DNA of 64,000 nucleotides from Ideonella oryzae (GTDB lineage: Bacteria; Pseudomonadota; Gammaproteobacteria; Burkholderiales; Burkholderiaceae_C). Of the stretch, positions 51,484 through 61,765 are shown one piece after another. A program made the translations under genes and the position numbers. The notes under the pieces were generated by a model. That model made no database searches. It was given only the letters and a program-made list of their open reading frames with translations, and had not been told where the DNA came from. The stretch is taken from assembly GCF_024055665.1 (NCBI RefSeq), contig NZ_JAMXMC010000001.1, positions 1 through 64,000 of the forward strand. The letters run 5' to 3'. Numbering within the stretch: the first letter of the stretch is position 1; each line of letters opens with the position of its first letter.

Positions 51484-52878
51484 TCAGGGCAGGCCCGCCC
51501 CTTCCCGGCAGCGGGCCAGGGCGTCGACCACCGCCTGGAGGGCTCGGCCGCAGTCGTCGCGGGTGAGCGCGCCGCCCAGGCACAGGCGGATGCCCTCGGG
51601 CGGCACGCGGTCGGTGGAGAAGGCCTGGCTGGCCACCGCCGCCACGCCCAGCGGACGCAGGGCCGCGGCCAGGTCGGCGCTGGGGCAGCGGCCGTCGTCG
51701 CGGTCCTGCAACGGCAGCCACACATGGAAGCCCTGGGGGTGGGTGCGTGCGCCCAGCCCTTCGAGCTGGCTGCGCGCGAACGCGCTGCGCCACTCGCATT
51801 CGGCGCGGATGGCCTCCAGCCAGGTCTGGCCCAGGCCGCTCTCCAGCCAGTGGGTCACCAGGCCCATGCTGACGGTGGAGGCCATGACCGTCATCGCCCG
51901 CAGGGCGCCGGCCAGGCGCTGAGTGGCCGCGGCGGTGGGGGCCAGCACATAGGCATGGCGCAGCCCGGCGCCCAGCCACTTGGACATGCCGGTGATGTAG
52001 TAGGTCAGGCCGGGCGCGAAGTCGGCCAGCGGCGGCGGCACGGCCACCGGCAGCATGCCGTAGGCATCGTCCTCGATGATCGGGATGCTGTAGCGCAGCG
52101 CGATGTCGGCCAGCTGCTCGCGCCGGCGCATCGGCAGCGACACCACGGTGGGGTTGTGCAGGTTGGGGCACACATACAGCGCGCCCACCGGCGTGGTCTT
52201 GCAGGCGGCCTCGAAGGCCTCGGGCAGCACGCCCTGTTCGTCCATCGGCAGCGGGTGCAGCTGCGTGCCCAACTGGGCCGCGATGGCCTTCAGCCCGGGG
52301 TAGGCCAGGGCCTCCACGCACAGGCTCTGGCCCGGGCGGATCAGCAGGCTGACCAGGGCCGTCAGCGCGCTGTGGATGCCGGGGCAGACCAGCACCCGCT
52401 CGGCGCTGGCCTCCTGCAGCCACTGGCGCAGCCAGCGGGCCGCCACCTCGCGGTCCTGGGCCGAGCCGCCGAAGTCCTGGTAGCGCATCACGTCGTGCAG
52501 CGGCATCTGCGCCATCCACTGTGCCGCGGCCTCCTGCAGGCGCTGCTCGGCCGGGTGGCCCACCAGCTCCGGCGGCATGTTCATCGTCATCTCGGCGCCG
52601 GTGCCGCCGCGCAACGGCAGGCCGATGAAGGAGCCGCGGGCGTAGGAGCCCAGGCCGGGGCGCGAGGCGATCAGGCCGCGCTCGCGCGCCTGGGCGAAGC
52701 CGCGCACCACCGTCGTGTAGTTCAGGCCCAGCACCTGGGCCAGGTCGCGCAGGGGCGGCAGGCGCTCGCGCGGGGCCAGGCGGCCGTTGCGCAGGTCCTC
52801 GGACAGCAGCTCCGGGATCAGCTGGTAGGCGGGCAGCTCGCTGCTGCGCAGGCGGGGAATCCAGTGGGAAAACGGCAT
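51484..52878 (-). CDS. GntR/MocR-type regulator with aminotransferase-like domain
   Basis: This 464-residue MocR protein has an N-terminal GntR winged HTH (about 15-80: PAYQLIPELLSEDLRNGRLA, RDLAQVLGLNYTTVVRGFAQ, ARERGLIASRPGLGSY). A type-I aminotransferase-like domain follows: CPGIHSALTALVSLLI, PNLHNPTVVSLPMRRREQLA, IIEDDAYG and the PLP lysine in YITGMSKWLGAGLRHAYV. It binds PLP and an amine or amino acid as effector in known relatives (GabR, PdxR, TauR). It is divergent from the Nit1C cluster, with paired direct repeats between, so it is the likely Nit1C regulator in place of the sigma54-type NitA known elsewhere. Confidence 0.9.
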   Translation of the reverse strand: MPFSHWIPRLRSSELPAYQLIPELLSEDLRNGRLAPRERLPPLRDLAQVLGLNYTTVVRGFAQARERGLIASRPGLGSYARGSFIGLPLRGGTGAEMTMNMPPELVGHPAEQRLQEAAAQWMAQMPLHDVMRYQDFGGSAQDREVAARWLRQWLQEASAERVLVCPGIHSALTALVSLLIRPGQSLCVEALAYPGLKAIAAQLGTQLHPLPMDEQGVLPEAFEAACKTTPVGALYVCPNLHNPTVVSLPMRRREQLADIALRYSIPIIEDDAYGMLPVAVPPPLADFAPGLTYYITGMSKWLGAGLRHAYVLAPTAAATQRLAGALRAMTVMASTVSMGLVTHWLESGLGQTWLEAIRAECEWRSAFARSQLEGLGARTHPQGFHVWLPLQDRDDGRCPSADLAAALRPLGVAAVASQAFSTDRVPPEGIRLCLGGALTRDDCGRALQAVVDALARCREGAGLP

Positions 52879-52987
52879 GCCATCGCGGGCGGTACGTCAG
52901 GTCCGGACGCGCCCCGCCAGTTTGCCCAATGTCAACGCCTTGCGGGGCCTTCACCCCCGCCGGGCCACGACCCCGCGCGGTGCGCGC

Positions 52988-53123
52988 CGGCCATTGATCG
53001 GGTGCATTGATCGCATGGCCGCCTGCCCGGCTTGGTGCGGCACCACCTTGCGCCCGCGCAAACCGGGCCGCGGTCCGGCCCCGGCCACGCCCGGCCCTCG
53101 CCCGGTTGATCGGCCATTGATCG
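52988..53123. promoter_or_regulatory. paired TTGATCG direct repeats in the MocR/Nit1C intergenic region
   Basis: Within the 351-bp gap (52879-53229), TTGATCG occurs four times in one orientation: at 52994, 53007, 53106 and 53117. A 13-bp word, CGGCCATTGATCG, is repeated exactly at 52988-53000 and 53111-53123. MocR regulators are known to bind direct repeats, so these are candidate sites for the adjacent regulator. The rest of the gap shows no gene. Confidence 0.6.
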
Positions 53124-53229
53124 CGCCGCCGCACCGCCCGGCGGCACAGGCCTCGCAAGACAGCGCCCGTTGCCGCGTGGCCCGCCACCGCAGCGCCCTT
53201 CCTGCCCTCCCTCCCCTGAAAGGACTCCC

Positions 53230-53712
53230 ATGCCCACCGTCACCTACCCGGCCCACCAGATCGGCGACTTCCTGGTCGACTACGAAGAAAAGGTCTTCGA
53301 GGACGTCAAGGCCGCGCCGGGCGAGAAGGCCCTGGTCACCTTCCACACCGTGGCCTTCGAAGGCTCGATCGGCCTGGTCAACCTGCTGCAGGCCCTGCGG
53401 CTGCAGCGCAAGGGTTTCGAGACCTCCATCCTGCTCTACGGCCCGGGCGTGACCCTGGGCGTCAAGCGCGGCTTTCCCAAGCTGGGCGACGAGGCCTTCC
53501 CCGGCCACCAGAACTTCAACAAGCAGCTCGAACGCTTCATGGCCGAGGGCGGCAAGGTCTACGCCTGCCGCTTCGCGCTGCAGGCCCTGTACGGCCACGG
53601 CGAAGGCGCGCTAATCGAGGGCATCCGCCCGATCAACCCGCTGGACGTGCTGGACGTGGTGCTGCTGCACCGCCAGCAGAACGCCTTCATCCTGGACACC
53701 TGGACCCTCTGA
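53230..53712 (+). CDS. MSMEG_0572/Sll0783 family nitrogen starvation response protein (Nit1C cluster)
   Basis: This 160-residue cytosolic protein matches the first gene of Nit1 clusters. Recognisable stretches are [60 protein letters not shown] and [20 protein letters not shown]. The fold is DsrE-like in look (a small alpha/beta domain with a Cys late in the sequence, C117). In Synechocystis the homologue sll0783 is induced by nitrogen starvation and is needed for normal polyhydroxybutyrate build-up. The ribosome site GAAAGGA precedes the ATG at 53230. It heads a seven-gene run in one direction; in Pseudomonas nomenclature it corresponds to nitB. Confidence 0.9.
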
Positions 53713-53727
53713 CCCCCCGGAGCCCCC

Positions 53728-54744
53728 ATGCCGGCATCCCACACCACGGTCCGGGCCGCCGCCGCCCAGATCGCCCCCGATCTGGACAGCGCCGACGGCA
53801 CCCTGGCGCGCGTGCTCGAGACGATCGAGCAGGCGGCCCGCCAGGGGGTGGAGCTGATCGTCTTTCCCGAGACCTTCGTGCCCTACTACCCCTACTTCTC
53901 CTTCGTGCAGCCGCCGGTGCGGCAGGGGGCCGACCACCTGCTGCTGATGCAGCGCGCGCCCACCGTGCCCGGTCCGCTGACCGACGCGGTGGCCGGCGCG
54001 GCCCGGGCCGCCGGCATGGTGGTGGTGCTGGGCGTCAACGAGCGCGACCACGGCAGCCTCTACAACACCCAGCTGATCTTCGACGCCGATGGCCGCCTGC
54101 TGCAGAAGCGCCGCAAGATCACCCCCACCTACCACGAGCGCATGGTCTGGGGCCAGGGCGACGGCAGCGGCCTGGCCCCGGTGGACACCCGCGCGGGCCG
54201 GGTGGGCGCGCTGGCCTGCTGGGAGCACTACAACCCGCTGGCCCGCTACGCGCTGATGGCCCAGCACGAGCAGATCCACTGCGCGCAGTTCCCCGGCTCG
54301 CTGGTGGGGCCGATCTTCGCCGAGCAGATGGGCGTCACCATCCGCCACCACGCACTGGAGTCGGGCTGCTTCGTCGTCAACGCCACCGGCTGGCTGCACG
54401 ACGCGCAGATCCGCCAGATCATGCCCGACGAGGCCCTGCAGGGCGCGCTGCGCGGCGGCTGCCACACCGCCATCGTCTCGCCCGAAGGCAAGTACCTGGC
54501 CGAACCGCTGACCGAGGGCGAGGGCCTGGTGGTAGCCGACCTGGACTTTGCGCTGATCGACAAGCGCAAGCGGATGATGGATTCGGTGGGCCACTACGCC
54601 CGGCCCGAGCTGCTGAGCCTGGCCATCCGCCGCGACGCGGCCCATCCGCTGCGCGGCTACGACGCCACAGCCGGGGCCGCCGATCCCCTCGACGCCCTCG
54701 AGGCTTTCGCCCCCCTTGCCGCCACCGCCCCGGAGGCCCTGTGA
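53728..54744 (+). CDS. Nit1-type nitrilase (Sll0784 family)
   Basis: This 338-residue carbon-nitrogen hydrolase has the catalytic triad in place: E48 ([15 protein letters not shown]), K130 ([15 protein letters not shown]) and C164 ([15 protein letters not shown]). The [11 protein letters not shown] form is that of true nitrilases, which turn nitriles into carboxylic acid plus ammonia. In Pseudomonas strains the matching gene (nitC) in the nit1C cluster is required for growth on cyanide or certain nitriles. It begins 15 nt after the first gene and overlaps the next by 4 nt (GTGA). Confidence 0.93.
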
Positions 54745-55859
54745 ACACCAACACCCAGCTGATGACCGAGCTGCAGACCCGCGGTCTGCGCCTGCAGGAC
54801 CCGGGCGCCGGCGCCGCCAGCCGCCGCGGCGGCGCCGGGCCCTCCGACCACAAGGCCGTGGTGGTGGACGGCGTGACCCTGATGGTGCCGGTGCACACCC
54901 ACGGCGCCTTCGACTCGCCCTTCGTGGCCGAGGCACCGGGGCCCGACGGCCGCAGCCAGCTGCGCCACGGCAGCATCCCCATCGCGCAGATCGAGTTCGC
55001 CCGCACGCCGCGCTTCTACAGCGGCCAGACGGCCGACGGCATTCCCTACAGCCACATCGCCACGCTGCACGGGCGCGACGTGCTGGCCACCACCGTGCTG
55101 CAGACCTGCATCCGCTATGAAAGCCGGCGCAAGGCCTGCCGCTTCTGCGCCATCGGCCAGTCGCTGGCGGCCGGCCGCACCATCGCCCGCAAGACCCCGG
55201 CCCAGCTGGCCGAGGTGGCGCGTGCTGCGGTGGAGCTGGACGGCGTGCGCCACATGGTGATGACCACCGGCACGCCGCCCACACCCGACCGCGGCGCCCT
55301 GCTGCTGTGCGAGAGCGCCCAGGCGGTCAAGGCCGCGGTGGACCTGCCGCTGCAGGCCCAGTGCGAGCCGCCCGACGCCGACGCCTGGTTCCAGCGCCTG
55401 AAGGACGCCGGCGTGGACACCCTGGGCATGCACCTGGAGGTGGTGGGCGAGGCCCTGCGCCAGCAGCTGCTGCCCGGCAAGGCCGAGGTGCCGCTGGCCC
55501 GCTACTGGGACGCCTTCGCCGCCGCGGTGGAGGTGTTCGGGCGGGGCCAGGTCAGCACCTACCTGCTGGCCGGCCTGGGCGACAGCGTGGACACCCTGCT
55601 GGCCACCAGCGAGCGCCTGCTGGCCCTGGGCGTCTACCCCTTTGTCGTGCCCTTCGTGCCCATCAGCGGCACGCCGCTGGAAGACCACCCCGCCCCCAGC
55701 GCCGACTTCATGCGCGCGGTGCTGGCCCCGCTGGGCGCCATGGTGCGCGCCGCCGGCCTGCGCGCGGGCGACATCAAGGCCGGCTGCGGGCGCTGCGCGG
55801 CCTGCTCCACGCTGGCCGTGTTCGAGGACACGCCCAGCCCCGCCCCGCTGGCCTGCTGA
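54741..55859 (+). CDS. MSMEG_0568 family radical SAM protein (Nit1C cluster)
   Basis: This 372-residue radical SAM-type protein has an unusual cluster motif: C123-x9-C133-x2-C136 ([20 protein letters not shown]) rather than Cx3Cx2[15 protein letters not shown] is the SAM-binding-like segment. A C-terminal CxxCxxC (C349, C352, C355 in [10 protein letters not shown]) may bind a second iron-sulfur centre. The start is GTG at 54741. The reaction is not established for this family. Its strict partnership with nitrilase, GNAT and AIR-synthase-like proteins suggests modification or synthesis of a nitrile-related small molecule. It corresponds to nitD of Pseudomonas. Confidence 0.9.
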
Positions 55860-55869
55860 GGGACCGCCC

Positions 55870-56457
55870 ATGTTCATCGCCGCCGATCACCGGCCCACCC
55901 CCTTGCCGATCTGGTGCGAGCTGCCGCTGGACTACCGCCCCACCGAGGTCCGCGTCCAGTGGGCCAGCAACCCCTGGATGCAGGCCCAGGCCCTGCGCCT
56001 GCGCCGCGAGGTCTTCTGCGCCGAGCAGGGCGTGTTCCAGGACGACGACCTCGACGCCATCGACGCCCGGCCCGACACCCGGCTGCTGGTGGCCTGCGCC
56101 GACCTGGCCGGCCTGCCCGACGAGGTGGTGGGCACGGTGCGCATCCACCCCGAAGGCGAGGGCCTGTGGTGGGGCTCGCGCCTGGCGGTGGCCACGGCCT
56201 GGCGCCGCCACGGCCAGCTGGGCAGCGGGCTGATCCGCCTGGCCGTGGGCAGCGCCCATGCGCTGGGCTGCACCCGCTTCCTGGCCCATGTGCAGCCGCA
56301 GAACGAGGCCCTGTTCCGCCGCCTGCACTGGCAGACCCTGGACGAGGTGCAGATCCACGGCCTCCCGCACCGGCTGATGCAGGCCGACCTGGCCCATTAC
56401 CCGCCCTGCCACACGCCCTGGGCCGGCCTGGTGCTGGCGCAGCGGAGCCGCCCGTGA
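55870..56457 (+). CDS. MSMEG_0567/Sll0786 family GNAT N-acetyltransferase (Nit1C cluster)
   Basis: This 195-residue protein has the GNAT core at about residues 30-160: QALRLRREVFCAEQGVFQDD (an acyltransferase-like start), VVGTVRIHPEGEGLWWGSRL (beta-4) and AVATAWRRHGQLGSGLIRLA (acetyl-CoA pyrophosphate loop of R/Q-x-x-G-x-G/A type). The ATG at 55870 is 10 nt after the radical SAM stop; it ends in a GTGA overlap with the next gene. The acceptor substrate is unknown. It corresponds to nitE. Confidence 0.88.
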   Translation: MFIAADHRPTPLPIWCELPLDYRPTEVRVQWASNPWMQAQALRLRREVFCAEQGVFQDDDLDAIDARPDTRLLVACADLAGLPDEVVGTVRIHPEGEGLWWGSRLAVATAWRRHGQLGSGLIRLAVGSAHALGCTRFLAHVQPQNEALFRRLHWQTLDEVQIHGLPHRLMQADLAHYPPCHTPWAGLVLAQRSRP

Positions 56458-57545
56458 ACGACGCGAGCGCCTCCACCCGCACCTCCCGGCTGACGGCCCT
56501 GCTGCAGGCCCTGCGCCAGGGCCGCGGCTTTGCCCACAAGCGCGACATCGCCCAGGTGCTGGCCCGGCTGCCCGAGTGCCTGGCCCCGGCCTGGACCGGC
56601 GTGTCGACGAGCGTGCCCAACGGCGACGACTGCGCCGCCCTGCCCCAGGCCGACGGCAGCCACCTGCTGCTGGCCATCGAGGGCCTGATGCCCGACTTCG
56701 TGCAGCAGCAGCCCTGGTTCGCCGGCTACAGCGCGGTGCTGGTCAACCTCAGCGATGTGGCCGCCATGGGCGGGCGCCCGCTGGCGGTGGTGGACGCGCT
56801 GTGGAGCGCCGAGCCGGCCACCGCCGAGGCCCTGCTCGACGGCATGCGCGCGGCCTGCCTGTGCTACGGCGTGCCGCTGCTGGGCGGCCACAGCAACCTG
56901 CGCGCGCCCAGCGCCCAGCTGGCGGTGGCGGTGCTGGGGCGGGCGCAGCGCCTGATCTCCAGCTTCGCGGCCCGGCCGGGCGACCGCCTGCTGATGGCGG
57001 TGGACCTGCGCGGCCACTGGATGGGGGACCAGCCCTTCTGGAACGCCAGCACCGAGGCCCCGCCCGCGCGGCTGCAGGCCGACCTGGCCCTGCTGGCCGA
57101 GCTGGCCGAGGCCGGGCTGTGCCGGGCCGGCAAGGACATCAGCATGGCCGGCGTGCTGGGCACGCTGCTGATGCTGCTGGAATGCTCCGGCCAGGGCGCG
57201 CAGCTGCAGCTCGACGCCCTGCCCCACCCGCCGGCCGAGGCCGGCTGGCCGGGCTGGTCCGCCACCGGCCCGCAGGCCCAGGCCGCCCAGCTGCGCTGGC
57301 TGAGCGCCTTTCCCAGCCATGGCTTCGTGCTGGCGGTGGCGCCCGAGCACGCGGCCGAGGTCATCGCCCGCTTCCAGGCCCGCGCGCTGGCCTGCGCCGA
57401 CATCGGCCAGGTGCGCGTCGGCACGGCGGTGGACATCACCCTGGGCACAGGTGCCCAGGCCGAGCAGGCCCGCCTGTGGGACTTCGCCAGCGAGGGCTTT
57501 TTGCAGCCGCAGCCCCGGGCCGCGGGGGCGGAAAGCGCGCCATGA
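56454..57545 (+). CDS. Sll0787 family AIR synthase-like protein (Nit1C cluster)
   Basis: This 363-residue ATP-dependent PurM/ThiL-fold protein has a N-terminal PNGDDCAALPQADGSHLLLA (acidic metal/ATP segment), NLSDVAAMGGRPLAVVDALW and LLGGHSNLRAPSAQLAVAVL, the family hallmarks of AIR synthase/SelD/HypE relatives. The C-terminal domain shows GKDISMAGVLGTLLMLLECS. Relatives activate a carbonyl or amide oxygen with ATP, which would suit dehydration or amidine chemistry; the real substrate is unknown. It starts at GTG 56454 and overlaps both neighbours. It corresponds to nitF. Confidence 0.9.
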   Translation: MNDASASTRTSRLTALLQALRQGRGFAHKRDIAQVLARLPECLAPAWTGVSTSVPNGDDCAALPQADGSHLLLAIEGLMPDFVQQQPWFAGYSAVLVNLSDVAAMGGRPLAVVDALWSAEPATAEALLDGMRAACLCYGVPLLGGHSNLRAPSAQLAVAVLGRAQRLISSFAARPGDRLLMAVDLRGHWMGDQPFWNASTEAPPARLQADLALLAELAEAGLCRAGKDISMAGVLGTLLMLLECSGQGAQLQLDALPHPPAEAGWPGWSATGPQAQAAQLRWLSAFPSHGFVLAVAPEHAAEVIARFQARALACADIGQVRVGTAVDITLGTGAQAEQARLWDFASEGFLQPQPRAAGAESAP

Positions 57546-58771
57546 CCGCCTCCCCGCGCATCGCCCTGCTGATGCACTCGGTGCTGCCGCGCGGCGGCGT
57601 GGTGCACACGCTGGAACTGGCCGGTGCGCTGGCGGCCGCCGGCACGGCGGTGGACGTGCTGGCCCCGGTGGAGCCCGGGCAGGCGCTGTTCCGCCCGCTG
57701 CCCAGCGGCGTGGGCTGGGTGCCCCTGGCCGTGCCCGCACCCGTCGCCAGCGGCCTGGCCGAGCAGGTGGGCCAGCGCATCGACGCGCTGGTGCAGGCCC
57801 TGCCCGCCGCCCTTCGGCGGGGCGGCTACGCCCTGCTGCATGCGCAGGACAGCCTGAACGGCCAGGCCCTGGCCCGTCTGGCCCCGGCGCAGCCCTGGGT
57901 GCGCACGGTGCACCACCTGGACGATTTCAGCGACCCGCGCCTGGCCGCCTGGCAGGACGGCGCCTGGCGCGCGGCCAGCGCGGTGTGCTGCGTCAGCGAT
58001 CTGTGGGCCCGGCAACTGCGTGCCCTGGCCGGGCCGGAGGGCCCGCCGGTGCACCGCGTCTTCAATGGTGTGAACCTGGACCGCTTCCACCCCGGCCCGG
58101 TGGCCGGCGACGCGACGCTGCTGCGCCAGCACCTGCCCGAGGGGGACGGGCTGGACGAGGCCCCCTTCATCCTGGCCGTGGGTGGGGTGGAGGCGCGCAA
58201 GAACAGCGCCCGGCTGCTGCAGGCCTTCGCCCGGCTGCGCCAGCACCCGAGCTTCCATCGCGCCCGCCTGGTGCTGGCCGGCGGTGCCAGCCTGCTCTCA
58301 CACGGGGCCGAGCAGGCTCGCTGGCAGGCCGCCCTGGATGAAGCCAGGCTGGCCGAGGGCCCGCGGCAACCCGTCTGGCGCACCGGCCCGCTGTCCGACG
58401 CGCTGCTGCCCGCATTGATGCGCCGGGCCCGGCTGCTGGCCATGCCTTCGCTGAACGAGGGCTTCGGCCTGGTGGCGCTGGAGGCCCTGGCCTGCGGCAC
58501 GCCGGTGCTGGTGTCGCGTCGCGCGCCCTTCACCGAGCACCTGGACGGCAGCCCCGGCGTGTCCTGGTGCGAACCGGAGGACCTGGCCAGCCTGACCCGA
58601 GGCCTGGCCCGGGCCTGGCATGCGCCGCGCCTGGGCGCCGCGCCGCCGGTCTGCCAGCGCCTGGCCTGGGGCCGCAGCGCACTGACTCACCAGACGATCC
58701 ATGCCCAAGTGCTGGCCGGCCGCCCGTTCCCCCGCGAGCCAGAAACCTCCTTGTCCACCCCCCTTGCCTGA
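57542..58771 (+). CDS. MSMEG_0565 family glycosyltransferase (Nit1C cluster)
   Basis: This 409-residue GT-B fold glycosyltransferase (GT4-like) has an N-terminal acceptor domain (IALLMHSVLPRGGVVHTLEL), a linker VFNGVNLDRFHP and a donor domain with FILAVGGVEARKNSARLLQA. The EX7E motif is present as SLNEGFGLVALEALACGTPV. Presence of a glycosyltransferase suggests the pathway product is glycosylated. The start overlaps the AIR-synthase-like stop (ATGA). Confidence 0.9.
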   Translation: MTASPRIALLMHSVLPRGGVVHTLELAGALAAAGTAVDVLAPVEPGQALFRPLPSGVGWVPLAVPAPVASGLAEQVGQRIDALVQALPAALRRGGYALLHAQDSLNGQALARLAPAQPWVRTVHHLDDFSDPRLAAWQDGAWRAASAVCCVSDLWARQLRALAGPEGPPVHRVFNGVNLDRFHPGPVAGDATLLRQHLPEGDGLDEAPFILAVGGVEARKNSARLLQAFARLRQHPSFHRARLVLAGGASLLSHGAEQARWQAALDEARLAEGPRQPVWRTGPLSDALLPALMRRARLLAMPSLNEGFGLVALEALACGTPVLVSRRAPFTEHLDGSPGVSWCEPEDLASLTRGLARAWHAPRLGAAPPVCQRLAWGRSALTHQTIHAQVLAGRPFPREPETSLSTPLA

Positions 58772-58780
58772 GGCCCTCAC

Positions 58781-59074
58781 ATGCCCGCCATGCACTACAC
58801 CCTGCGCTGGCCCGATGCCAGCGAAACCACCGCCTATTCGCCCTCGCTGATCATCCAGGACTACTTCGAGCCCGGACGGGCCTACCGGCTGGACGACTTC
58901 GCCCAGCGCCTGCAGGCGGCCACCGCCATCGCCAACGAACGGGTGCAGGCCAAGTTCGGCTTCGTCTGCTCGCGCGCCAACGACCAGCAGGCCACGCTGC
59001 TGGCGCGCATCGCGCAGTTCGCCCCGCAGCCCGAGGCCGAGGTGACGGTACTGGCCTTCGGCCCGGCGGACTGA
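58781..59074 (+). CDS. MSMEG_0570 family nitrogen starvation response protein (Nit1C cluster)
   Basis: This 97-residue protein has the family text YTLRWPDASETTAYSPSLII, QDYFEPGRAYRLDDFAQRLQ and NERVQAKFGFVCSRANDQQA. The small alpha/beta protein carries one conserved Cys (FVCSRA). It is the last gene of the run in this direction. The flavin-dependent MSMEG_0569-type oxidoreductase often found in these clusters is not in this window after it. Confidence 0.88.
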   Translation: MPAMHYTLRWPDASETTAYSPSLIIQDYFEPGRAYRLDDFAQRLQAATAIANERVQAKFGFVCSRANDQQATLLARIAQFAPQPEAEVTVLAFGPAD

Positions 59075-59110: not shown

Positions 59111-61765
59111 TCAGGGCGCGGCCGCCGCGCGCAGCAGCCCGACCACTTCATCGGCCGGCGCCGGGCGGTGGAAGTGGTAGCCCTGGATCTCGTCGCAACC
59201 GTGGCGACGCAGGAAGTCCAGCTGCTCGGCCGTCTCCACCCCCTCGGCAATGGTGTGCAGGCCCAGGCTGCGGGCCAGGTTGATGACGGTGGCCACGATG
59301 GCATCGTCCTGCGGGCTCTGCGCCAGGCCGCGCACGAAGGACTGGTCGATCTTGAGCCTGTCCACCGTGAAGCGCTTGAGGTAGCTAAGCGAGGAGTAGC
59401 CGGTGCCGAAGTCGTCGATGGACAGCGTCACCCCCAGCTGCTTGAGCGAGGCGATGCGGGCGATGGTGAAGTCGGAGTCCTCCATCGCCACGCTCTCGGT
59501 CAGCTCCAGCTCCAGCAGGTGGGCCGGCAGGTCGTGGCGGCGCAGGGCCTCGGCGACATCCTGCTGCAGACGCGGGTGACGGAACTGGCTGACCGAGAGG
59601 TTGATGGCCACCGGCACCACGGGCAAGCCGGCGGCCCGCCAAGCCGCCGTCTGGCGCAGGGCCTCGTCCAGCACCCAGCGACCGATCTCCTGGATCAGCC
59701 CGGTCTCTTCGGCGATGGGAATGAAGCGACCGGGCGGCACCAGGCCGCGCTGCGGATGCTGCCAGCGCACCAGCGCCTCCAGCCCCACCACGCGCTCGCT
59801 GCAGGCGTCCATCTGCGCCTGGTAGTGCAGCACCAGCTCGTGGCGCTCGACGGCCCAGCGCAGCTCCCGCGCCAGGGTCAGCGTCTGCTGCACCTGTTCC
59901 TGCAGGCGCCGCGAGGCCACCCGCACGGTGTTGCGCCCTTCGCGCTTGGCCTGGTGGACGGCCGATTCCGCCGCCCGGCTCAACTCGGTCAGGTCGGCCC
60001 CGTTCTCGGGGAACTCGGCCGCGCCGATGCTGGCGCTCAGGCGCAGGTCCTGTCCACCGACGGCGAAGGGCCGTGCCACCGCGTCCATCAGCCGGATGCT
60101 GATCTGGGCCACGTCGCTCACACCCTTGTCGGGCAACAGCAGGATGAAGTCGTCGCCACCCAGGCGGCACAAGGTGTCTTCCGGTGCCAGGCACTGGGCC
60201 AGGCGCAGGGCCAGCTCGCGCAGCACCTGGTCGCCAGCCTCGTGGCCCAGCGATTCGTTGATGGCGCTGAAATGGTCCAGGTTCAGGTGCATCACCAGCA
60301 CCGGCGTGTGTTGGTGCCGGGCCGTGGCCAGCACCACCCGCGCCCGGTCCACCAGCAGGGCCCGGTTGGGCAGGTCGGTCAGGCTGTCGTGGTTGGCCAG
60401 GCGCAGGATGCGCTCCTCCGCCGACTTGCGGCTGGAGGTCTCGGTGAAGATGCCCAGGTACTGCTGCAGTTGCCCGTGCTCGTCCTTGATGGCGTTGATG
60501 GCCAGCCACTCGGGGTAGACCTCGCCCGCCTTGTTGCGGTTCCAGATCTCGCCTTCCCAGCGGCCCTCGGTGTTGAGCTGTTTCCACAGCTCGGCATAGA
60601 AGGCCCGGTTCTGCCGACCGGACTTCAGCAGGGCCGGCGTCTGGCCCAGCACCTCTTGGGGGCTGTAGCCGGTGATGCGCGAGAAGGCCCGGTTGATCGA
60701 GATGAAGCGGTTGTGCGCATCGGTGATGAAGATGCCTTCCTCGGTCGACTCGAACACTTGGCTGATCAGTCGGGAACGCTCCTCGGCCTGGCGGCGGTCG
60801 GTGATGTCCTGCGCCAGCACCAGACGGGCGGGCCGCCCGTCGCGCAGCAGCGTGTGGCCGGTGACCTCGACCCAGAAGCGGGAGCCGTCCTTGCGCACGT
60901 GCTGCCACTCGCCCGAACTGCCGTAACCCCCGATCTGACGGTGGCTGTTGACGGTGCGCCGCAGCCGCTTGATGTCCTCCGGCGGCCGGATGTCCTCAAT
61001 CGACATGGACAGGAACTCTTCGCGGGCATAGCCGTACCGGGCGATGGCTGCCTCGTTGACCGCCATGAAGCGCAGGGTGTCGAGGTCGAAGACCCACATC
61101 GGCAGCGGGTTGACCTCGAACAGCTCGTGGTAGCGGCTCTCCGAGACCTGCATCGCCAACTCGGCGCATTTGCGGTCGGTGATGTCCAGCCAGGCGCCGG
61201 TGAGCATCATCGGTCGGCCGTTCGCGTCCCGCAGCACCCGCAGCCGGTCGTCCACCCAGCGGTAGCTGCCGTCCGCGCGGCGGAAGCGGTATTCGTGATG
61301 CAGCGCGTCGTGCTCGGCCAACTGGGCCTGGGCTGCCAGCGCCTGCGCCAGATCCTCGGGATGCAGGTGCTGTTGCCAGAAGTCGGGGCTGCTGAACCAG
61401 GCGCTGACCGGATGGCCGGTCATGTCCTCCACGTTCTGGCTCACAAAGTCCACCGCCCAGCGGCCGGGGGTCGCGGGGTCGGGCTTGAGCGTATAGAGGA
61501 CGGCCGGCGTGACGTCCAGGATGCGGGCCAAGCGCTCGCGCTGCCGGTTGGCTTCGTCCTGCAGGCGCTGGTGGCGCCGCTCGGCGATGCGCCCCAGCAC
61601 CCCGATCAGCAGCGCACTGAGCGCCACAAAGGCCAGCCCCTTGATCGACTGCAGGGTCGACAAGGTGGCCACGTCGGTGGTGATCAGCGCCAGCAGGTGG
61701 TCCGACCCCAGGATCCAGAGGACGCCGAACGCCAGGAAGTAGAGGACGATGCGCTGAGCGCTCAT
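59111..61765 (-). CDS. membrane PAS-GGDEF-EAL protein, predicted c-di-GMP phosphodiesterase
   Basis: This 884-residue protein has two N-terminal membrane helices (IVLYFLAFGVLWILGSDHLL; LAFVALSALLIGVLGRIAER). Three PAS/PAC units (about 85-200, 205-325, 330-448), GGDEF (about 450-615) and EAL (about 625-880) follow. The GGDEF domain looks inactive as a cyclase: the signature reads GGDDF (near residue 540) and the metal-binding Asp strand reads LNLDHFSAIN with Asn in place of the first Asp. The EAL domain is intact (LEALVRWQHP, ELTESVAMED, DDFGTGYSSL, AEGVETAEQL). Phosphodiesterase activity, perhaps GTP-modulated, is therefore the likely output. It is convergent with Nit1C. Confidence 0.92.
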   Translation of the reverse strand: MSAQRIVLYFLAFGVLWILGSDHLLALITTDVATLSTLQSIKGLAFVALSALLIGVLGRIAERRHQRLQDEANRQRERLARILDVTPAVLYTLKPDPATPGRWAVDFVSQNVEDMTGHPVSAWFSSPDFWQQHLHPEDLAQALAAQAQLAEHDALHHEYRFRRADGSYRWVDDRLRVLRDANGRPMMLTGAWLDITDRKCAELAMQVSESRYHELFEVNPLPMWVFDLDTLRFMAVNEAAIARYGYAREEFLSMSIEDIRPPEDIKRLRRTVNSHRQIGGYGSSGEWQHVRKDGSRFWVEVTGHTLLRDGRPARLVLAQDITDRRQAEERSRLISQVFESTEEGIFITDAHNRFISINRAFSRITGYSPQEVLGQTPALLKSGRQNRAFYAELWKQLNTEGRWEGEIWNRNKAGEVYPEWLAINAIKDEHGQLQQYLGIFTETSSRKSAEERILRLANHDSLTDLPNRALLVDRARVVLATARHQHTPVLVMHLNLDHFSAINESLGHEAGDQVLRELALRLAQCLAPEDTLCRLGGDDFILLLPDKGVSDVAQISIRLMDAVARPFAVGGQDLRLSASIGAAEFPENGADLTELSRAAESAVHQAKREGRNTVRVASRRLQEQVQQTLTLARELRWAVERHELVLHYQAQMDACSERVVGLEALVRWQHPQRGLVPPGRFIPIAEETGLIQEIGRWVLDEALRQTAAWRAAGLPVVPVAINLSVSQFRHPRLQQDVAEALRRHDLPAHLLELELTESVAMEDSDFTIARIASLKQLGVTLSIDDFGTGYSSLSYLKRFTVDRLKIDQSFVRGLAQSPQDDAIVATVINLARSLGLHTIAEGVETAEQLDFLRRHGCDEIQGYHFHRPAPADEVVGLLRAAAAP

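Follow-up and report, generated by a model that had tools for sequence, protein, structure and literature searches.

The Nit1C locus and its divergent regulator

The stretch analyzed here, referred to as the window, comprises 64,000 nucleotides of Ideonella oryzae and is part of contig C1 of an assembly of 4.7 Mb. It carries a Nit1C operon, a divergent gene for a MocR-type regulator and, between them, a regulatory region of 351 base pairs (bp; 52879..53229) that holds two pairs of TTGATYG boxes and a sigma54-type -24/-12 element. The explanation that best accounts for the locus, and that sequence comparison makes probable as a whole, is that a sigma54 -24/-12 promoter of the Nit1C operon is gated by the divergent MocR at the adjacent TTGATYG repeats. 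Its basis is a MocR clade inherited together with Nit1C, boxes that track MocR and show helically stepped spacing, and an element that stands under two types of regulator. Nit1C, NitA and the MocR regulators are themselves already known.

The original prediction described seven consecutive Nit1C genes, and all seven lie on the plus strand (53230-59074) and score above the curated NCBIfam cut-offs. The operon opens with NitB of the MSMEG_0572/Sll0783 family (53230..53712; TIGR04044, 283 bits, cut-off 110) and the Nit6803-family nitrilase NitC (53728..54744; TIGR04048, 567 bits, cut-off 503). It proceeds with the MSMEG_0568 radical SAM protein NitD (54741..55859; TIGR04043, 577 bits, cut-off 304), the MSMEG_0567/Sll0786 GNAT acetyltransferase NitE (55870..56457; TIGR04045, 215 bits, cut-off 68) and the sll0787 AIR-synthase-like protein NitF (56454..57545; TIGR04049, 416 bits, cut-off 321). 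The MSMEG_0565 glycosyltransferase (57542..58771; TIGR04047, 342 bits, cut-off 260) and NitG of the MSMEG_0570 family (58781..59074; TIGR04042, 113 bits, cut-off 80) complete the run. The Nit1C order (0572, nitrilase, radical SAM, GNAT, AIR synthase, 0570) is kept, with the glycosyltransferase inserted between the last two; Podar et al. 2005 (PMC1199592) already described this insert for Burkholderia and Rubrivivax.

The divergent gene (51484..52878, minus strand) codes for a protein of 464 amino acids with the Pfam domains GntR and Aminotran_1_2. The GntR/aminotransferase regulator foreseen for the divergent position is thus borne out by both domains, and its gene sits just outside the interval first proposed, which starts with the intergenic region. 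An N-terminal GntR winged helix followed by an aminotransferase I/II sensor places the protein in the MocR/GabR subfamily of GntR regulators. The AlphaFold2 model (predicted local distance difference test, pLDDT, 89) confirms the fold and nothing beyond the fold; GabR does not appear among the 50 matches listed for it, an absence that carries no weight. The best NCBIfam match is EhuR (NF052286), of the EnuR/EhuR/EutR family of MocR-type ectoine catabolism repressors, at 335 bits and below the cut-off of 480.

Boxes and sigma54-type element of the regulatory region

Both box pairs of the window are exact and lie on the plus strand. Pair A (52994..53013) reads TTGATCG-N6-TTGATCG, with boxes starting at 52994 and 53007 (13-bp period), and pair B (53106..53123) reads TTGATCG-N4-TTGATCG, with boxes starting at 53106 and 53117 (11-bp period). 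The sigma54-type element CGGCACAGGCCTCGCA (53142..53157, plus strand) keeps GG-N10-GC, has two departures and occupies a place that is conserved in relatives; the second box of pair B starts 25 bp before it. From this -24/-12 promoter, transcription would start about 62 bp before MSMEG_0572. The pattern TTGATYGN{4,6}TTGATYG has two exact matches in the 4.7-Mb assembly, both in this regulatory region. As this pattern is confined to pairs A and B, the region is probably the single target of MocR.

For the comparison with relatives, 73 upstream regions were collected and 7 were dropped at identities of at least 85%, leaving 58 divergent and 8 other regions (L037, L042, L052, L053, L057, L102, L130 and L140). 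Among the latter, L057, at a contig end, shows no MocR in the available sequence, and L102 has one that falls outside the clade described below. A box is TTGATYG, and the pair counts allow up to one mismatch per pair. Sigma54-type elements were scored as departures from a TGGCAC..TTGCW context with GG-N10-GC.

The boxes stand out from the background. The 8-mer ATTGATCG, on either strand, occurs in 38 of the first 50 divergent regions, against a shuffle maximum of 17 for any 8-mer. TTGATYG boxes run mostly in one direction and are paired at periods of 11 and 13 bp. The 11-bp pair is present in 54/66 regions (100 shuffles: mean 0.04, maximum 1) and the 13-bp pair, often at least 100 bp further upstream, in 32/66 (100 shuffles: mean 0.06, maximum 1); other periods (9, 10, 12 and 14-16) reach at most 5 of the 66. 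After masking of the boxes and sigma54 sites, nothing clear emerged at 7-9 bases, and GCACCA and CGCACC were slightly above the shuffle maximum (39/58 versus 35).

With up to two departures, the sigma54-type element lies downstream of the 11-bp pair in 63/66 regions (100 shuffles: mean 1.55, maximum 6), compared with 3/66 on the minus strand of the same segment. At up to one departure it is found in 43/66 (shuffles: mean 0.23, maximum 2), and it is perfect in 11; the three regions that lack it are L034, L057 and L102. In the 52 regions with both an 11-bp pair and an element, the second box precedes the element by 25 bp (20 regions), 26 bp (19) or 35-37 bp (10), with 3 others; 49/52 spacings therefore fall at 25-26 or 35-37 bp, one helical turn apart. 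The distances between pairs A and B (n=29) are 100-102, 111-113, 121, 130-132, 141-142, 164-165 and 214 bp, a period of about 10.3-10.5 bp (permutation p 0.007, with seven cluster centres drawn by eye and a test weakened by the kinship of the sequences). The short box-to-element spacing recurs in the second order described below.

Association of MocR with Nit1C

The first sample comprised 399 genomes drawn evenly from the host's order, with MSMEG_0572 over its NCBIfam cut-off as the marker gene. Fifteen carry the marker and all fifteen have within 2.1 kb a MocR gene, which is the immediate divergent neighbor in 13, diverges from about 2 kb away in G191 and stands upstream in tandem in G363. 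This supports the proposal that MocR is the cluster's own regulator. A search with MocR (E up to 1e-60) matched 30/399 genomes, and the MocR proteins of the Nit1C genomes are 36-55% identical to that of the window. A MocR found mostly without Nit1C, which would speak against the proposal, is not what the 399 genomes hold: the hits of at least 44% come from 13 Nit1C genomes and G284, where the hit is a fragment at a contig end and no marker was found. Three genomes of one genus have a relative at 41-42% and no Nit1C, and the 12 remaining hits (32-39%) are not members of the clade described below.

The arrangement is not peculiar to this genome. A named set was formed from the best 80 of 567 confirmed matches to the window's MSMEG_0572 protein, an uneven sample in which the closest contig is that of Ideonella sp. 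B508-1, with a 100% identical protein. In this set 57/80 loci carry MocR (>250 bits), 50 of them divergently, 6 downstream of the flavoprotein gene (5 named Methyloversatilis) and 1 in tandem (Acidisoma). The 23 loci without MocR comprise 16 from cyanobacteria (0/16 with MocR), 3 from Methylobacter, 2 from myxobacterial metagenome-assembled genomes (MAGs), 1 from an Eremiobacterota MAG, and L057, a contig cut just upstream. An independent recruitment of MocR in Methylobacter was considered and dropped, since the genes share about 22% identity with that of the window and, in one of the three loci, lie 5.6 kb away.

A maximum-likelihood tree of 86 MocR proteins, built without the fragmentary L127 and without L032, which nearly duplicates the window, joins 70 of the 71 Nit1C MocRs and three orphans in one clade (support 100/98), with the Acidisoma protein outside. 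As the clade spans alpha-, beta- and gammaproteobacterial hosts, the link between MocR and Nit1C is probably old. The orphans inside it (L112, L113 and L114) belong to one genus and lack Nit1C; those of L112 and L114 have apparent glnD and YeiH-like genes as neighbors. In the pair L047 and L179, the Nit1C upstream region of a MAG labelled Verrucomicrobiaceae matches that of a gammaproteobacterial genome in site and positions, and the MAG's MocR pairs with Hydrocarboniphaga in the tree, which would be either mis-binning or transfer.

Boxes and element under MocR and NitA

When mocR is placed downstream instead (6 loci), the boxes and the element stay with the operon. The 16 cyanobacterial loci have neither box pair nor element (0/16). 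Six other loci without MocR have no box pair (0/6), and two of them, both myxobacterial, have the element.

The second sample was taken from the order of G760, in which 24/390 genomes have the Nit1C marker over the cut-off. Regulators were typed there by similarity over partial genes, outside the tree, with two queries: the window's MocR (296-383 bits) and, for NitA, the sigma54 regulator that adjoins Nit1C on an Acinetobacter indicus plasmid (453-545 bits). The set contains the near-duplicate pairs L169/L175 and L177/L178, and L179 agrees with L047 of the first set in site and positions, which leaves 18/19 MocR loci as new. The divergent gene is MocR in 19 and NitA in 5 of the 24 loci. The element, with up to two departures, is present in 24/24; with up to one departure it is found in 19/19 MocR loci and 1/5 NitA loci. 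The 11-bp pair occurs in 14/19 MocR loci and 0/5 NitA loci, and the spacing is 26 bp in 13 of the 14 loci that have it. At least two exact boxes are found in 19/19 MocR loci and in 0/6 NitA loci (the five and the Acinetobacter indicus plasmid), with the element in all 25. Both types occur within the genus g449, which has MocR in G952, G1103, G1121 and G1138 and NitA in G992 and G1086.

The original prediction had contrasted sigma54 control in Pseudomonas with MocR control here. This contrast does not hold at the promoter, where a sigma54-type element stands at MocR-type and NitA-type clusters alike. Because the element is present under both regulators, MocR seems, from these comparisons, to have been added on top of sigma54 control and not to have replaced sigma54.

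A survey of the class found the marker over the cut-off in 4/369 genomes, namely the window's own, G760, G699 and G483. G760 and G699 have MocR, and the gene places of G699 are the same as those of L095; G483 has an element with two departures, no MocR in 9.8 kb and no boxes. On plasmids, a Shinella locus (L155) contains a single exact box and lacks the element, and the Aquabacterium olei locus (L154), outside all counts, has MocR, boxes and element.

Proposed mechanism and its alternatives

In the proposed mechanism, sigma54 RNA polymerase would read the Nit1C operon from the -24/-12 promoter. The divergent MocR would bind the TTGATYG direct repeats beside this promoter and gate it, and could loop the DNA by occupying pairs A and B. 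Free of ligand, MocR would repress, blocking the promoter or the activator's access. An amino-acid-like compound of the pathway would form an external aldimine with pyridoxal 5'-phosphate (PLP) at K300, and MocR would be released. The ATPase that sigma54 needs would come from an enhancer-binding protein distinct from MocR, for which NtrC, acting when nitrogen is limiting, is a possible candidate. In many lineages MocR would also control its own gene. That MocR acts through the boxes on the sigma54 promoter appears very likely, and its action as a repressor rather than an activator is somewhat favored.

The sign of action is suggested by the position of the sites. An exact box falls inside the -24/-12 element at 10 loci, which hints at repression. 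An exact box lies within 110 bp of mocR in 41/58 divergent regions (30 shuffles: mean 3.4, maximum 7), and a second sigma54-like element that faces mocR is present in 23/58 (shuffles: mean 2.0, maximum 6), with up to one departure in only 5 of the 23. The overlapping boxes, the boxes near mocR and the elements facing mocR would fit a repressor that controls itself.

Sigma54 needs an AAA+ activator with ATPase activity. A domain scan found no sigma54-activator (AAA+) domain in MocR, and the protein that opens the promoter has to be sought elsewhere. The genome has rpoN (TIGR02395, 451 bits), as do 26/27 genomes checked; no match was found in the control Synechococcus elongatus and, to our knowledge, cyanobacteria lack sigma54. 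The genome also has ntrC and 19 strong hits to the sigma54-activator family PF00158. An NtrC-type dyad, GCAC-N7-GTGC, is present in 15/66 upstream regions (20 shuffles: mean 1.45, maximum 3), in all 15 at 150-255 bp upstream of the element. A version of the dyad with N5 was discarded, as in about half of the cases it is the sigma54 element itself. NtrC as the activator is put forward as a tentative guess.

Several observations weigh against a sigma54 promoter gated by MocR. MocR cannot open such a promoter, because it has no AAA+ domain, and no dedicated activator of the operon was found in this genome. A NitA orthologue as a hidden activator was rejected here, since only the AAA+ part matches well, and a full-length NitA-like protein is present in 3/22 MocR-type genomes (E up to 1e-80). 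The window's intergenic region has no NtrC-type dyad within two mismatches. The window's element taken alone is no better than chance in 64 kb (1 found, 0.63 expected); its weight comes from the relatives. The NitA-type elements of the second order are weak, 4/5 having two departures. The end of the box (TTGATTGC, ATTGATCGCA) resembles the -12 half-site, so that boxes may create part of the sigma54 match; the 10 overlapping loci and the elements facing mocR are affected, and less so the main element, which lies at least 25 bp from pair B. The boxes themselves are not universal: the 11-bp pair is missing from 12/66 regions, boxes are few at the alphaproteobacterial MocR loci although the element is retained there, and neither boxes nor element are present in Acidisoma (L102) and Acetobacter (L153), where a MocR-type gene precedes Nit1C in tandem. 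Boxes are absent next to the six relocated mocR genes, which tells against universal autoregulation. Finally, pair B is mostly upstream of the sigma54 footprint, a position that an activator might occupy as well, and the shuffles leave the relatedness among the sequences in place.

The position of pair B leads to the alternative of MocR as an activator or co-activator, which is considered unlikely. From pair B, at about -62 to -45 from the predicted start, MocR would aid the sigma54 polymerase or the enhancer-binding protein in a class I-like manner, with the ligand switching it on. Pair B keeps a constant helical phase to the element, which suggests a contact specific to one face, it is usually upstream of the element itself, and some MocR regulators, such as GabR and PdxR, do activate. 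On the other hand, binding at the 10 loci with a box inside the element should block transcription; EnuR, of the nearest characterized family, is a repressor in the accessible text of PMC8739950, and the MocR of Pseudomonas pseudoalcaligenes CECT5344 is a putative repressor in that of PMC8567248.

It is very improbable that the boxes belong to another factor, such as the enhancer-binding protein, and that MocR is a neighbor that merely travels along. Sites for enhancer-binding proteins can also be direct repeats upstream of a sigma54 element, and no dedicated activator was found. However, the boxes track MocR (19/19) and not the element, being present in 0/6 NitA loci when all 25 loci have the element, and the two myxobacterial loci with the element and without MocR have no box pair. 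Exact boxes also lie near mocR (up to 110 bp) in 41/58 divergent regions, and direct repeats are the operator type expected for MocR proteins in the part of PMC5320631 available. The least probable case is a sigma70 promoter repressed by MocR in the ordinary way, with the sigma54-type element as a relic or chance match: the window's element departs from consensus at two positions and EnuR works on a sigma70 promoter (PMC8739950, available text), but the element is found in 63/66 and 24/24 regions at a like place and on the same strand and in 0/16 cyanobacterial loci, and a strict sigma70 scan of the regulatory region (0 found, 0 expected) is uninformative either way.

The putative signal of MocR

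Returning to MocR as a ligand-released repressor, the residues K300, N242, D270, Y273, R307 and R431 are invariant in an alignment of 71/71 Nit1C MocRs. K300 is presumably the PLP lysine, the roles of the PLP-site residues being assumed from the aminotransferase fold and from EnuR. By spacing and motif, with EnuR outside the alignment, the window's K300, N242, F420, R431 and C433 correspond to EnuR Lys302, Asn244, Phe417, Arg429 and Ser/Cys431. Asn244, Lys302, Phe417 and Arg429 are listed among the conserved pocket residues of EnuR in the consulted portion of PMC8739950. The ligand is probably not that of EnuR, because E104, R132 and G297 are shared by 70/71 Nit1C MocRs, whereas the 15 other proteins compared mostly have different residues there.

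An amine had been suggested originally as the inducer. This is disfavored by the invariance of R431, which matches EnuR Arg429, in 71/71 proteins, and an amino-acid-like inducer would be likelier because this carboxylate-type arginine is invariant. From these alignments an amino-acid-like inducer is rated somewhat better than an even guess. Candidates compatible with both the pocket and the GNAT encoded in the cluster would be an amino acid or an N-acyl diamino acid. In CECT5344, the Nit1C proteins rise with 3-cyanoalanine, an amino acid, though there under NitA (PMC8567248, part available).

Comparison with known systems

The Nit1C cluster of P. pseudoalcaligenes CECT5344, in which nitA diverges from nitBCDEFGH, has the same structural genes as the window. 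The run in the window differs by the extra glycosyltransferase and by lacking the flavoprotein gene. In CECT5344 the divergent gene encodes NitA, a sigma54-dependent regulator according to the accessible text of PMC11049912, whereas the window has MocR and TTGATYG boxes. NitA-type regulation was not found in the window, as its divergent gene encodes MocR and not an AAA+ enhancer-binding protein. The sigma54-type element would be at the same place in both, judged from other NitA-type loci (five genomes and the Acinetobacter indicus plasmid). CECT5344 likewise has a MocR linked to nitrile metabolism, a putative repressor of the cio cluster with the nitrilase Nit4 (PMC8567248); in the text available, this MocR is described for cio/nit4 and not for nit1C, which in this strain has NitA.

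The window's MocR differs from the EnuR family in its neighbors, which are Nit1C genes, and in its promoter, which looks sigma54-type, in contrast to the sigma70-type promoter given for EnuR in the part of PMC8739950 consulted. The EnuR-type palindrome ATTGT-N6-ACAAT was also looked for and has no match within two mismatches in 52879-53229, where the repeats are direct instead. Searches of an open-access full-text library retrieved no MocR-Nit1C link, no operator for it and no MocR boxes on a sigma54-type promoter.

Other features of the locus

The flavoprotein gene MSMEG_0569 (TIGR04046, over the cut-off), a usual member of the Nit1C cluster, lies outside the run at C1:71517-72716, about 12.4 kb downstream on the same contig. 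No exact box pair was found near the displaced gene (G000 C1:71517-72716; L031 9472-10776). The flavoprotein gene may therefore have left the regulon.

NitB (53230-53712) has no Pfam match at E up to 0.001 and a weak predicted structure (pLDDT 69), with a Foldseek match to 3mc3 (E 1.1e-4); from this model it may have a DsrE/DsrF-like fold. Its C113 is invariant across 30 aligned members (alignment A2). A gene that reads as PAS-GGDEF-EAL (59111-61765) is convergent at the end of the operon, and similar genes are found in several other Nit1C loci, such as L044, L058, L104 and L150. A plasmid listing holds a relative of MSMEG_0572 in 515 of 72,556 records, 374 of them from Klebsiella. Rfam and tRNA scans of the window gave no match.

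Implications for Nit1C regulation

Nit1C is found in Proteobacteria and Cyanobacteria (among the best 80 of 567 matches) and, by family names, in mycobacteria. In CECT5344 the Nit1C nitrilase is needed for cyanide assimilation (PMC8567248, available text). A MocR specific to the cluster and expected to bind its signal on PLP offers, once purified, a sensor for ligand screening, and the boxes with the promoter offer an exact reporter, a concrete means of searching for the natural signal. A sigma54 layer would link Nit1C to nitrogen limitation in Proteobacteria, which agrees with the "nitrogen starvation response" names given to its proteins.

A wider reading is offered with reserve. A PLP-sensing MocR might act directly on the sigma54 polymerase or its activator via helically phased repeats, and MocR and NitA might be interchangeable sensors on one conserved sigma54 promoter, swapped within a genus. 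They would read one pathway by different chemistry, MocR through an amino-acid intermediate captured on PLP and NitA through its PAS domains. If true, a MocR on a sigma54 promoter would extend the known repertoire of the MocR family.

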